From the NCBI GenBank assembly GCA_028818225.1, contig JAPPOG010000083.1, positions 1 to 64,000 on the forward strand: DNA of 64,000 nucleotides, written 5' to 3'. Position 1 is the first letter of the stretch; each line of letters begins with the position of its first letter. The notes under the pieces were generated by a model, which was given only the letters and a program-made list of their open reading frames with translations, ran no database searches and was not told the DNA's origin. Origin of the DNA: Gammaproteobacteria bacterium. GTDB lineage: Bacteria; Pseudomonadota; Gammaproteobacteria; Pseudomonadales; Pseudohongiellaceae. The position numbers were made by a program, and so were the translations under genes. Positions 10,560 to 33,979 of this stretch are shown one piece after another.

Positions 10560-11720
10560 ATGGAAGCAGACTCTCTTCTTTTTAGCTTCTTCCTAATTTT
10601 CACCGGTGCGGCGCTTTTATCCACTGTTGCACTTTTTCTGCGCCAGCCCTTATTAGTCGCCTATATTATCATTGGCGTCATTCTCGGTCCCTTCGGGCTA
10701 AAACTAATCGCAGACGCTACCCTGCTAGCTGATATATCGGAATTTGGGATCATTTTCCTCCTGTTCTTGCTGGGATTAGACATGCAACCCAGCAAGCTTT
10801 TCGCGACTTTAAAAAATACTTTCCTGATTACCCTCGCCAGTTCACTACTGTTTGTATCTCTTGGTTATAGCACCGGCATTCTGTTTGCCTTTTCTCAAAC
10901 GGAAAGCCTGGTAATTGGCTTTGCCATGATTTTTTCCAGCACCATTATCGGAATTAAATTGTTACCAACCACTATACTCCATCAGAAGCATATGGGTGAG
11001 TTGATGGTGGGAATCCTTTTACTGCAGGACTTTATTGCAATCTTTATTCTGGCATTTCTTGATTCCGGCAACCCTGAGCAGGCGAACGCTTTGCGGGTAC
11101 TAGCTGCGTTTCTTATTCTGCTACTAGTTGCCTATTTGATTACGCGCTATGTACTAATCAAACTAATTGGTAAATTTGATCACTTCAAGGAATACATTTT
11201 CCTGTTAGCAATAGGCTGGTGTCTTGGTTTATCAGAACTGGCTTCTGCTATGGGGCTGTCAGCTGAAATCGGTGCTTTTGTAGCTGGTGTTTCACTGGCA
11301 ACGAGTCCGATTGCCTTGTTTATTGCATACAGCCTTAAACCGTTACGCGATTTTTTCCTGATATTATTTTTCTTCTCGCTGGGTGCCCAATTCAACATTG
11401 GCTTATTGTCAGAAATAATCGCTCCTGCCCTGCTGTTAGCGGCTCTTGCTTTAACCTTAAAACCCATCGTATTTCATTATCTGCTGCGCCGTTGCAGCGA
11501 ACGTAATCGACTGGCCTGGGACGCAGGATTGCGTCTCGGCCAGATTAGTGAGTTCTCATTGTTGATTGCTTTTGTTGCTGTCCAATCTGGCATGATCGGT
11601 GAGGTCGCATCCCTGGTAATCCAGGCTGCTGCAATTATTACTTTCTTGATTTCTTCTTATGTGGTGGTGCTCTTCTGTCCAACGCCCATAGCCATCTCGC
11701 CGAAGTTACGGCGTGATTAG
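10560..11720 (+). CDS. Cation:proton antiporter, CPA2 (Kef-type) family
   Basis: An inner-membrane monovalent cation/H+ exchanger. 386 residues, nearly all hydrophobic, with about 11-12 segments. Family features include RQPLLVAYIIIGVILGP, FLLFLLGLDMQ and the core AMGLSAEIGAFVAGVSLA. It ends soon after the last segment and lacks the C-terminal TrkA-N/RCK regulatory domain of KefB/KefC, so nucleotide or glutathione gating is not expected from this chain. Na+ or K+ preference cannot be read from sequence. It follows the DUF934 gene by 40 bp and overlaps convergent acuI by 4 bp. Confidence 0.85.
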   Translation: MEADSLLFSFFLIFTGAALLSTVALFLRQPLLVAYIIIGVILGPFGLKLIADATLLADISEFGIIFLLFLLGLDMQPSKLFATLKNTFLITLASSLLFVSLGYSTGILFAFSQTESLVIGFAMIFSSTIIGIKLLPTTILHQKHMGELMVGILLLQDFIAIFILAFLDSGNPEQANALRVLAAFLILLLVAYLITRYVLIKLIGKFDHFKEYIFLLAIGWCLGLSELASAMGLSAEIGAFVAGVSLATSPIALFIAYSLKPLRDFFLILFFFSLGAQFNIGLLSEIIAPALLLAALALTLKPIVFHYLLRRCSERNRLAWDAGLRLGQISEFSLLIAFVAVQSGMIGEVASLVIQAAAIITFLISSYVVVLFCPTPIAISPKLRRD

Positions 11721-12718
11721 GCATTAAGATTTAGCAAATATCTGCCCCGGGCCTGCCCTTTCAGTACCCGATAAAGACAATCTTGTAACTGATCCAACCC
11801 GATTTCACTAACAATTTTTTCCAGATTTTCCAACTTCCAGTCACTGGCGAGCAGAGCCCAAACCCTGGTTTTGGTTGCCAATGGTAATTCCACGGAATCT
11901 ACTCCAAGCAGGTTGACACCACGCAAAATGAACGGCAATACGGAAGCCTGGAACACAGGAGATTGCACCAAGCCACAAGCCGCAACGCTACCGCCATATT
12001 TCACCGCTTTAATTACATTGAACAGGGTATCGCCCCCCACAACATCGACAGCACCAGCCCATTGTTCCTTCAACAATGGACGCGAGCTGGACTCTGCAAG
12101 CTCACTTCTGTCGATAATATCCGCTGCCCCCATTGTCTGAAGAAATGCTTTTGCTTCTGCTTTACCTGTGCTGGCGATCACTTCAAAGCCTAATTTCGCT
12201 AACAATGCCACAGCAACGACACCAACACCGCCAGTAGCGCCTGTGACCAGCACCCTGCCGTTGTCCTTGTTTAATCCATTTGCCAACAATTTCTCAACGC
12301 AGAGAGCCGCAGTAAAACCGGCTGTTCCCAGTACCATACTCTCCCTGAGACTCAGTCCATCCGGTAATGGCACCACCCATGTCGCAGGTACCCTTATAAA
12401 TTGACCAAAGCCCCCGGCAGTATTCATTCCCAGGTCGTAGCCAATTACGATGACTTCATCACCTTCCCTGAAATTTTCCGAAAAGGATTCAACAACTTTT
12501 CCAGCGGCGTCAATTCCTGGCGTGTGAGGGTATTCCCTGGTCACTCCTTTATTACCGCTGGCGGAGAGCGCATCCTTATAATTAATCGAAGAATACTCAA
12601 CGCTTATCAGCACATCTCCTGCGGGGAGTTCGGAAATAGAACGCTCAACTAATTCAGAGCTGAATTGTTTTTCTGCAACTTCACTAACCAGCAAAGCTTT
12701 AAATGATTGATCAGACAT
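11717..12718 (-). CDS. acuI: Zinc-free MDR oxidoreductase, YhdH/AcuI (acrylyl-CoA reductase) family
   Basis: NADPH-dependent reductase of the medium-chain dehydrogenase superfamily; AcuI/YhdH members reduce toxic acryloyl-CoA to propionyl-CoA. 333 residues. Family marks are EYSSINYKDALSASG, the HTPGIDAAG turn, the nucleotide-binding motif VTGATGGVGVVAVALL and the C-terminal ARGRYLL. It lacks the catalytic-zinc ligand set. In marine bacteria this activity serves DMSP and acrylate breakdown, but no dmd or other acu genes are nearby, so a general detoxifying role is as likely. Its 3' end overlaps the convergent antiporter gene by 4 bp. Confidence 0.85.
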   Translation of the reverse strand: MSDQSFKALLVSEVAEKQFSSELVERSISELPAGDVLISVEYSSINYKDALSASGNKGVTREYPHTPGIDAAGKVVESFSENFREGDEVIVIGYDLGMNTAGGFGQFIRVPATWVVPLPDGLSLRESMVLGTAGFTAALCVEKLLANGLNKDNGRVLVTGATGGVGVVAVALLAKLGFEVIASTGKAEAKAFLQTMGAADIIDRSELAESSSRPLLKEQWAGAVDVVGGDTLFNVIKAVKYGGSVAACGLVQSPVFQASVLPFILRGVNLLGVDSVELPLATKTRVWALLASDWKLENLEKIVSEIGLDQLQDCLYRVLKGQARGRYLLNLNA

Positions 12719-30754: not shown

Positions 30755-31375
30755 ATGATTTCCAAAAACTTAAATTTGTATGCAGTCATTCTGGCGGGTG
30801 GCAAAGGATCCAGAATGGGAGATCAGGATAAACCCTTGCTTGAACTCAATAACACTCCGCTCATCGAATGGGGATTACAGCGAATAAAAGACCAGGTAGC
30901 CAGAGTTGTAATTAGCGTTAATCACAATAGGGAAAAGTATGAATATTTAAACCTGGATCTGGTTGGTGACGAATTTGAAAAATATCAGGGACCATTAGTA
31001 GGCATAGTCAGCGCAATGGAATGGATCATTGCAAAAGAAGAAACGCCCACTGCCCTGTTGTGTATCCCTGCTGATGTGCCATTCTTTCCGAATAATTTAG
31101 TCTCTGTGCTTTGGGATGAATTTACTCACAATTCCTGCGATGTCATCTGGTGTCAATGCGAAAAACAAATACAACCCCTGTTCTCAATCTGGTCTCTCAA
31201 CTGTAAAGACAAACTGCAAGAGGCTCTGAGTAAAGGTTTGTTTGGGCCGAAATTGGTTATGCCTTTCGTATCCAATCATCTGATAACGATAGAGCCAGAT
31301 TCCGACCTCGATTTTTTAAATATTAATGACCGAGAGACGCTTGAATCTGTACAAGAAATGATCAAATCGAGCTGA
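30755..31375 (+). CDS. mobA: Molybdenum cofactor guanylyltransferase MobA
   Basis: Attaches GMP to molybdopterin to give the bis-MGD cofactor of DMSO-reductase-family enzymes. 206 residues. The nucleotidyltransferase signature is ILAGGKGSRMGDQDKPL at residues 12-28, followed by CIPADVPFFP (metal-binding Asp) and the C-terminal DLDFLNINDRETLE typical of MobA. No mobB or other molybdenum genes are adjacent. Members of this fold with other nucleotide substrates exist, but the signature and tail fit MobA best. Confidence 0.9.
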   Translation: MISKNLNLYAVILAGGKGSRMGDQDKPLLELNNTPLIEWGLQRIKDQVARVVISVNHNREKYEYLNLDLVGDEFEKYQGPLVGIVSAMEWIIAKEETPTALLCIPADVPFFPNNLVSVLWDEFTHNSCDVIWCQCEKQIQPLFSIWSLNCKDKLQEALSKGLFGPKLVMPFVSNHLITIEPDSDLDFLNINDRETLESVQEMIKSS

Positions 31376-31742: not shown

Positions 31743-31940
31743 ATGTCTGAATCTCGCCACCAAGACCACCTCAACACCGCCACTCCCGCTCGTAGCGACC
31801 GCGTATACAGCCAACAAAATCTCTGGTATTTCAGAACCCGTGAAGGTGAGGAAATCGGACCCTTTCGTTATCGTTCTGAAGCGGAAAGCAACCTCGACCG
31901 GTTTATAGCGCGACTTAAAGAAAAACTCCAACATAGCTGA
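31743..31940 (+). CDS. DUF6316 family small protein (65 aa)
   Basis: A 65-residue soluble protein with the conserved core LWYFRTREGEEIGPFRYRSEAE, the pattern of DUF6316 (small proteins of Pseudomonas-like gammaproteobacteria), and a basic helical tail ending LKEKLQHS. The function is not known. The ATG at 31743 lacks a clear ribosome site (AAAAAACG precedes it). It lies downstream of a sigma-54-type promoter and a folded leader, and 143 bp before the broken GAF gene. A longer overlapping frame at 31663-31908 is out of phase with this conserved core and is discarded. Confidence 0.75.
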   Translation: MSESRHQDHLNTATPARSDRVYSQQNLWYFRTREGEEIGPFRYRSEAESNLDRFIARLKEKLQHS

Positions 31941-32083: not shown

Positions 32084-33505
32084 ATGAACTCATTCGCCAA
32101 TAATCAACGCACTATTACCATTGCCTATGGCCCCGGCTATGCGAATGCGGCCGTCTGGAATGATCTGCAATCGAAGCTGGTTATTCCTACAGAGATATTG
32201 TCTATTACTGCTGCTCAACGGTATAACCCCGCACTGATCCTACTCGATCATCACTTGCTTCGGGAAATGGACCATAAGCAGTGGGTAGAGCAGTTTCCTG
32301 ACGCAATTATCCTGGCCGCCGAGTCCATGTAAATCGACGCAGATCTGATTCTCACAAATAATCTGCCTTACCGTCAGACTATGAAGCTGATAGAGATGGC
32401 CTGTTATCAATGGGTATTGAAAAGTGAAAAGACCGATAGAGCCACGCGACGAGACACTAGCTTCAGATATTTAAACAAACTCGCAGATATCAGTATCTCC
32501 CTGTCGGCAGAAGATGACCTGATGACGCTACTGACCAAAATCCTCACGGAAGGTCAGAACATTGCATGCTGTGACGCAGCCTTTCTCTACCTGATAAATG
32601 ATATCAATGATCACGAGCGAGAACTGGTTTTCAAGCTAACCCAAAATGATTCGCTCGATTTGCCGTTTGAAGAAATGCGTTTTCCGATGGATGAATCATC
32701 TGTTGCTGGCGCCGGCCCAAACTTGTTGGAAAACCTTGATCCAGATGCATCCTTTGCGACAGTTGCTTCCGGGGCCGATCTCAGTGGTAATCTTGGCGGT
32801 TACTTTACCGGCAGCGCCACCAGTACAGGTAGTAATGGCGCTGTGGCATTGGGCTTTGAGCTGCAAGTAACAAGCTCGGCAGCTGCCGACAGCTATCAGC
32901 ATGTCTTGTACGGAACTGTCGCTGTCAACGCAAATGGTGCTCAGCAAGTTGCCGCTTCTACACCTGATGCAACGATCGAAACTCAGAATATATCTTGGGG
33001 ATCATGGGACAACCCAATTGAAGATAACTGGGTAGTCGTTAACGAAGGTTCAGGGGAGCAGGTTGAGCTGCAAAATTCCGGCTATGAAGCCAACGTGACT
33101 CCCACTCCAGTTGCCAACTTACAGGGCTCAGCTTCCTATGGTACTACCCTCGCCTCCTCTTTTATTGGTAGCGGCAGCGCGGGCAACGTTACGCGAGTTA
33201 TTGCTGGCCTCGATGTGGACTTTAATAACGGACTCATCAGCAACGGAAATTTACAAGTGCAGGTTGCGGGATCGCAAGCATGGGACATCGACTTTGCTGG
33301 CATGGTTAACAATGGCATAGTCGATCTTAACGCCCTGGGTGGCACCTTGTCTGACCCAGGCGGACTCATCAGTAACTCTATCGAGGCCAATCTTGGTGGT
33401 GTATTTACTGGCATAAATGCCGAAGCATTTGTCGGTGGGTTCGATTTAATCGACCAACTCAATCAGTTTAATCACGTAAACGGCATCTTTACGATCGAAA
33501 AGTAA
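32084..33505 (+). pseudogene. Chimeric remnant: truncated GAF signalling protein fused to the tail of a beta-rich surface-type protein
   Basis: One reading frame, broken once. Codons 1-82 (32084-32329) encode a receiver-like N-terminus (AYGPGYANAAVWNDL ... LILLDHHLL). A TAA stop at 32330-32332 interrupts it, but the same frame continues at once and runs to 33505; an ATG at 32381 could restart translation. The continuing part encodes a linker helix and the first half of a GAF domain (RYLNKLADISISLS ... FPMDESSVAG). Near 32705-32715 this changes abruptly into about 260 Gly/Asn/Ser/Val-rich beta residues with no GAF, HD or kinase features, ending GVFTGINAEAFVGGF and IFTIEK, like the C-terminus of large FecR-linked or TbpB-like surface proteins. 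I infer nonsense mutation plus deletion-fusion; the 374-residue chimera from 32381 could still be made. Confidence 0.65.
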
Positions 33506-33520
33506 ATCACAGTCAAGTTA

Positions 33521-33546
33521 AAAAAAGGGCCAGATGGCCCCTTTTT
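33521..33546. terminator. Bidirectional intrinsic terminator
   Basis: AAAAAAGGGCC-AGAT-GGCCC(C)TTTTT, with a GC stem flanked by A and T runs, lies between the plus-strand chimeric gene and minus-strand msrB. It can stop transcription from both sides. Its presence 16 bp after the chimera's stop shows that the 3' end of the fused tail gene is intact. Confidence 0.85.
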
Positions 33547-33562
33547 ATTATTCTGGTCATCC

Positions 33563-33979
33563 TTATTCCTTTTTCTCGAAGTCGAGTGACACTGAATTTA
33601 TACAATAGCGTAATCCTGACTCCGGTGGCCCGTCCGGGAAAACATGACCCAAATGTGAGTCGCATTTACTGCAGATTACCTCGGTTCTAATCATACCAAG
33701 AGAAGTGTCAGGTATTTCAGTGACGCATTCCGAGTTTGCAGGCTGATAAAAACTGGGCCAGCCAGAGCCTGAATCGTATTTATTCTCTGAGGAAAACAAG
33801 GGCTCACCGCATGCTCCGCAGCTATACATACCGGTATCTTTGTGGTCGTTGAATTTGCCCGTAAACGCTCTTTCCGTGCCCTTTTCACGCAAAACATAGT
33901 AGCTTTCCGCATCCAGCTCCCGACGCCACTCCTCCTCGGACTTGCCTGGTTTTGCGGAAGGATTATTTTCATCTGACAT
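33563..33979 (-). CDS. msrB: Peptide methionine-R-sulfoxide reductase MsrB
   Basis: Repairs methionine-R-sulfoxide in proteins using thioredoxin. 138 residues. Two CxxC zinc pairs are present ([11 protein letters not shown] and [14 protein letters not shown]). The catalytic cysteine is in [11 protein letters not shown] near the end and SGSGWPSFY is intact. The ATG at 33979 has AAGGAG-like bases (revealed on the minus strand as AGGAGTCGCC) just upstream. It is divergent from alaA, with an inverted repeat between them. Confidence 0.96.

Follow-up and report, generated by a model that had tools for sequence, protein, structure and literature searches.

The 374-aa open reading frame (ORF) at positions 32381–33505 of the window (the whole 64,000-nucleotide stretch of DNA analyzed here) is very probably the scar of a collinear deletion of about 10 kb, and as such most likely a pseudogene. 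A first-pass annotation had described this ORF as the first half of a GAF domain that runs, with the reading frame kept, into a tail of a different kind, and had attributed the fusion to a deletion. Comparison with G012, the nearest relative examined, bears out the description and places the end of the GAF side at 32710, and the deletion reading is supported by the presence in relatives of both partner genes in the corresponding order. The features of the region are as follows:

30755..31375, plus strand: mobA-like gene, left-hand neighbor; position shared with relatives
31743..31940, plus strand: small conserved ORF that follows the mobA-like gene and precedes the head; position shared with relatives
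32084..32332, plus strand: receiver-like N-terminal part of the former REC-like/GAF/HD-GYP gene, closed by an in-frame TAA; 82 aa at 83% identity to G012
32333..32710, plus strand: head remnant, comprising the rest of the receiver-like part and the first ~40% of the GAF domain; 89% identity to G012 over 126 aa
32705..32716, plus strand: approximate deletion junction, placed by comparing the DNA with the two ends in G012; ~9.6 kb of the sequence type found in G012 is missing
32711..33505, plus strand: tail remnant, the C-terminal domain left from the giant FecR protein, with a stop codon of its own; 73–75% identity to the 2373-aa G012 protein at its end
33527..33540, plus strand: terminator-like hairpin after the tail; 5-bp all-GC stem, then a T run
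33563..33979, minus strand: msrB-like gene, right-hand neighbor; position shared with most of the relatives that were examined

The gene names mobA, msrB, alaA, pdxB, tig (trigger factor) and clpP are putative and go by the look of the sequences.

The fusion joins two genes of a cluster found in relatives

The head of the fusion corresponds, in relatives from the same genus, to a REC-like/GAF/HD-GYP protein of ~665 aa. Pfam identifies a GAF domain (residues 145–310), an HD domain (342–404) and an HD_5 domain (510–621), all above cut-off, in the 665-aa protein of G012, which also carries an HD motif at 387 and the motif HEKLDGSGYP at 556. Judged by eye, the first ~110 residues of this protein look like a receiver domain, for which there was no Pfam match in either the G012 protein or the window part. 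The window head aligns with residues 1–212 at 85% identity, with one TAA inside; GAF is thus followed by HD-GYP in the intact G012 protein, whereas the window copy stops inside the GAF domain and retains ~65 of its 166 residues. Neither half of the hybrid contains a Pfam or NCBIfam family above cut-off, and the GAF label of the window head is for this reason taken from the G012 relative.

The tail derives from the end of a FecR protein of ~2,370 aa, which in G012 has a signal-like start (by eye), a FecR domain above cut-off and a Pro-Glu-rich linker. The match of the intact giant to the LapA retention module is far below cut-off (27.6 of 50 bits), and its conserved C-terminal domain has no clear Pfam family. 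Apart from its first residue, the 264-residue window tail aligns at 75% identity with the final 263 residues of the 2,373-aa G012 giant. As the first-pass annotation had noted, the tail keeps a normal stop codon followed by a terminator-like hairpin; the FecR domain and the signal-like start that precedes it are both missing from the fusion. The tail had also been called beta-rich and surface-type: it is indeed the C-terminus of a giant FecR protein, but its beta-rich nature was not confirmed by structure prediction (AlphaFold, three sequences; mean pLDDT 30.6). Profile searches against solved structures with the tail (two alignments) and with the TPR/barrel protein found in relatives (see below) returned nothing convincing. 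TbpB_B_D was matched weakly by 2 of 10 tails (best E 0.0073) and was not matched by the window tail.

The two points that are joined in the window are separated by 9.6 kb in G012, where they have the same order, strand and neighbors. The gene order on either side of the fusion is also that of G012, G013, G011 and G025, which have the mobA-like gene and the small ORF, then head, island and tail, and then the msrB-like and alaA-like genes. The proposal that a REC-GAF-HD gene and a FecR/TbpB-like gene had shared one neighborhood therefore agrees with what relatives carry, except that Pfam does not recognize the receiver and that TbpB is matched only weakly. The proposal that the partners were direct neighbors that lost one half each does not hold, since in relatives a TPR/beta-barrel gene, and in several of them further genes, lie between the head and the giant, and ~10 kb are missing. 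Five TPR/barrel proteins scanned with Pfam (E 1) had no match to DUF560 and matched TPR families and BBP2_2 instead, with BBP2_2 barrel matches in four of the five and below cut-off in the sole member with a score shown.

The G012 island (L042) looks complete save for an in-frame stop in its TPR/beta-barrel gene, at the end of the ORF at 11669–12691, beyond which the rest of the frame is readable. Between the head and the giant, the island interiors of L043, L044 and L045 hold variable extra genes, among them a DUF6502 protein and an alpha/beta hydrolase (L044), a Phenol_MetA_deg-type protein (L043) and an unnamed protein of ~230–290 aa with a PPRI motif near its end.

We propose that an ancestor carried, between the mobA-like and msrB-like genes, a cluster of a REC-like/GAF/HD-GYP regulator, a TPR/beta-barrel protein and a FecR giant of ~2,370 residues with a signal-like start. 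A deletion of ~10 kb would then have joined codon ~209 of the regulator to codon about 2,110 of the giant, in frame by chance, and the regulator would have lost most of its GAF domain and all of its HD-GYP domain. Because the giant would have lost its signal-like start and FecR domain, the tail would hardly be exportable even if translated. By parsimony we infer that the direction of change was loss and not gain.

Gene order to the left and right of the junction agrees with relatives

DNA similarity to the GAF side extends as far as 32710, and the match to the giant takes over within the next few codons; since G012 has diverged, the junction can be placed only to within a few codons. The reading frame is kept across the junction, for which a random join has a one-in-three chance. 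At the two ends in G012, the longest exact word shared within 200 bases is 8 bases long and does not coincide with both break points. No repeat is therefore visible at the deletion ends, but given the divergence of G012 the window's own ancestor could have carried one.

Misassembly, which the first-pass annotation had raised as an alternative, would mean that a metagenome assembler skipped the ~10-kb island (through strain variation or low coverage, for instance) and joined its ends. The window's genome (G000) is a draft of 89 contigs, and base errors can give single stops in drafts, the TAA included. However, the contig follows the gene order of relatives to the left and right of the junction, so that a random misjoin is unlikely. 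The G012 ends show no collapsible repeat, the missing pieces are not found elsewhere in the bin, and other genomes have deletions with different breakpoints (see below). We consider such an artefact improbable.

Searches of the draft genome revealed no close match for the missing DNA elsewhere. The head protein had only weak partial matches (33% over 196–291 and 23% over 528–590), and the giant matched only the tail itself, a paralogue on contig C89 and a FecR-like stretch on contig C40, with no match to giant residues ~306–2102 at E 1. The G013 TPR/beta-barrel protein as query found nothing in this genome, a search that had no positive control, though the same query matches homologues in other loci. 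The C89 paralogue (C89:51248–52651; L050:4234–5655) is a compact 473-aa FecR protein, with a Pfam FecR match, that carries the C-terminal domain of the giant. Possibly it serves as a stand-in after loss of the giant.

An in-frame stop codon separates the fusion from its native start

Upstream of the 374-aa ORF, and in the same frame, lies an ORF of 82 aa (32084–32332) that is closed by a TAA at 32330–32332, so that the frame from the native start is interrupted in the window; the first-pass annotation does not name this stop explicitly. This codon, in the receiver-like part, cuts the native start off from the fusion, and the ORF is for this reason most likely a pseudogene. The suggestion in the first-pass annotation that a hybrid of about 374 residues might still be made is thus unlikely.

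The numbers of unique amino-acid changes in the window and in G012 were 6 and 5 in the head, and 12 and 8 in the tail (10 and 8 in its last 180 columns), so a rate test for decay found no excess of change on the window lineage and no clear difference. Synonymous sites are near saturation, and dN/dS therefore says little. The absence of a rate excess fits a recent deletion but would also fit retained function; with no clear sign of long decay, the fusion, if a pseudogene, should be a recent one.

Could the fusion instead be a working new protein, a cytoplasmic truncated GAF domain with the tail domain that is kept by selection? Its 374 codons are open through the junction and its amino-acid change is not accelerated. 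Against this stand the loss of the native start through the TAA, the loss of ~60% of the GAF domain, the loss of the signal-like start (by eye) that the tail's parent has, the lack of any sequence resembling a ribosome-binding site ahead of the ATG at 32381 (by eye), and the fact that head and tail share one ORF in no other genome of the genus survey described below. We regard a working protein as very unlikely; the remnant is most likely non-functional and recent, and presumably not expressed.

In a survey of the genus, head and tail share one ORF only in the window

Among 84 genomes of the genus, the head protein was matched in 35 (E 1e-30 or better) and the tail, paralogues counted in, in 36 (E 1e-20 or better). 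The head was full length without stops in 15 genomes and full length with stops in four (G060, G063, G077 and G082). It was in pieces in 14, several of them at contig ends (the window, G006, G009, G020, G023, G032, G035, G061, G067, G071, G073, G080, G098 and G099), and only distant paralogues were present in G017 and G074. Many of these genomes are drafts, in which single stops may be sequence errors. Head and tail lay on one contig in 14 of the 84 genomes, each time in the same order and on the same strand, with the following gaps, each measured between the two matches (where the head stops to where the tail begins):

8.3–12.3 kb: eight genomes (G011, G012, G013, G025, G076, G079, G082 and G093; the head gene of G082 has a stop)
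3.4–4.2 kb: three genomes (G035, G067 and G077)
1.7 kb: G071
0.17 kb: G073
0: the window (G000)

At these thresholds, no genome of the 84 other than the window's had head and tail in one ORF. The first-pass annotation had held that a family of intact homologues with the same GAF-beta architecture would speak against a deletion, and the survey found no such family. That the GAF-tail architecture is old, with the separate genes derived from it, is further contradicted by the full-length head proteins in 15 genomes and by the occurrence of the tail domain outside the genus. A profile of the tail matched 7 of 293 evenly drawn genomes of the order at E 1e-8 or better, the window's own included; the sample contains few members of the genus and says little about it. 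FecR was found in all five that were scanned of the six genomes other than the window's. An ancient origin of the fused form is thus hardly credible.

The island is broken or absent in other members of the genus

We compared 20 regions, including that of G006, more closely; a 100-base piece from G104 was left out, and the pieces in G065 and G080 are cut off by a contig end and are uninformative. In 5 of the 20 regions (G004, G010, G014, G016 and G068) the island is absent, with the mobA-like gene, the small ORF and msrB in a row. A head stump lies beside msrB in G006, G069 and G099, and a tail stump is present in G067 and in G071, where the msrB-like gene was also not found. The head of G073 continues into other giant-protein sequence and ends short of the tail; the contig begins just before the head, leaving the left flank unseen.

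No island was found in G024 (L158), G027 (L157) and G078 (L156), where the interval by msrB, in which relatives carry the island, is filled by several kb of other DNA. In the shrunken island of G035 (L046, 4451–5332), an ORF that by eye is transposase-like adjoins a tail fragment.

A tree of trigger-factor-like and aminotransferase-like proteins (40 rows; the deep forks have weak support, and the branches of G001 and G019 are long) groups the window with G012, G004, G001 and G019 (95/95), then with G016 and G068 (100/98), and puts G000, G073 and G071 in separate places. This placement fits several independent deletions, and the fusion appears to capture one moment in a recurrent loss.

Discussion

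As a single object the fusion is an ordinary deletion scar, which shows that an intact-looking ORF of 374 codons can be a pseudogene. Within one genus the broken clusters form a graded series, which provides a useful natural record of the loss of a surface-protein cluster, apparently on several occasions.

The intact island could, as a tentative and rather doubtful reading by analogy, be an undescribed export system in which an HD-GYP regulator accompanies a TPR/beta-barrel protein that would act as a type 11-like secretin and a FecR giant that would be exported by a TbpB-like C-terminal barrel. If so, the window would hold a fossil of the cargo's export domain and the genus would display repeated loss of a surface apparatus. 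In type 11 secretion, which involves DUF560 proteins, cargo with a C-terminal TbpB-type barrel has been described (PMC12282271). The island resembles this arrangement in having a TPR/beta-barrel-type protein just upstream of the giant and a tail that is weakly TbpB_B_D in 2 of 10 cases; it differs in that DUF560 was found in none of the five TPR/barrel proteins and that 'FecR' has 0 occurrences in the main text of that paper. Because the DUF560 model has no match, we do not file the island under type 11 secretion. A LysM-FecR biofilm operon has been described in Burkholderia (PMC5192318), and its gene set differs from that of the island. Our literature search found no paper on a FecR domain together with HD-GYP and an adhesin.

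The intact giant is like FecR surface proteins with a LapA-type retention module in its FecR domain, which is above cut-off, and in a LapA match far below cut-off. It differs in its conserved C-terminal domain without a clear Pfam family; the window keeps only this end.

HD-GYP proteins are cyclic-di-GMP phosphodiesterases, some of which have GAF domains. The intact head protein of G012 is alike in its GAF, HD and HD_5 domains and its HEKLDGSGYP motif, whereas the window copy is without HD-GYP and its receiver-like N-terminus is without a Pfam match.

Chimeric pseudogenes derived from deletions are a kind of object generally known in bacteria. The window ORF is of the same kind in that two collinear genes were fused by loss of the intervening DNA and that it has an extra nonsense codon. 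It differs in that the frame is kept through the junction, so that an ORF caller sees a gene, and in that several further species of the genus show erosion at this site.
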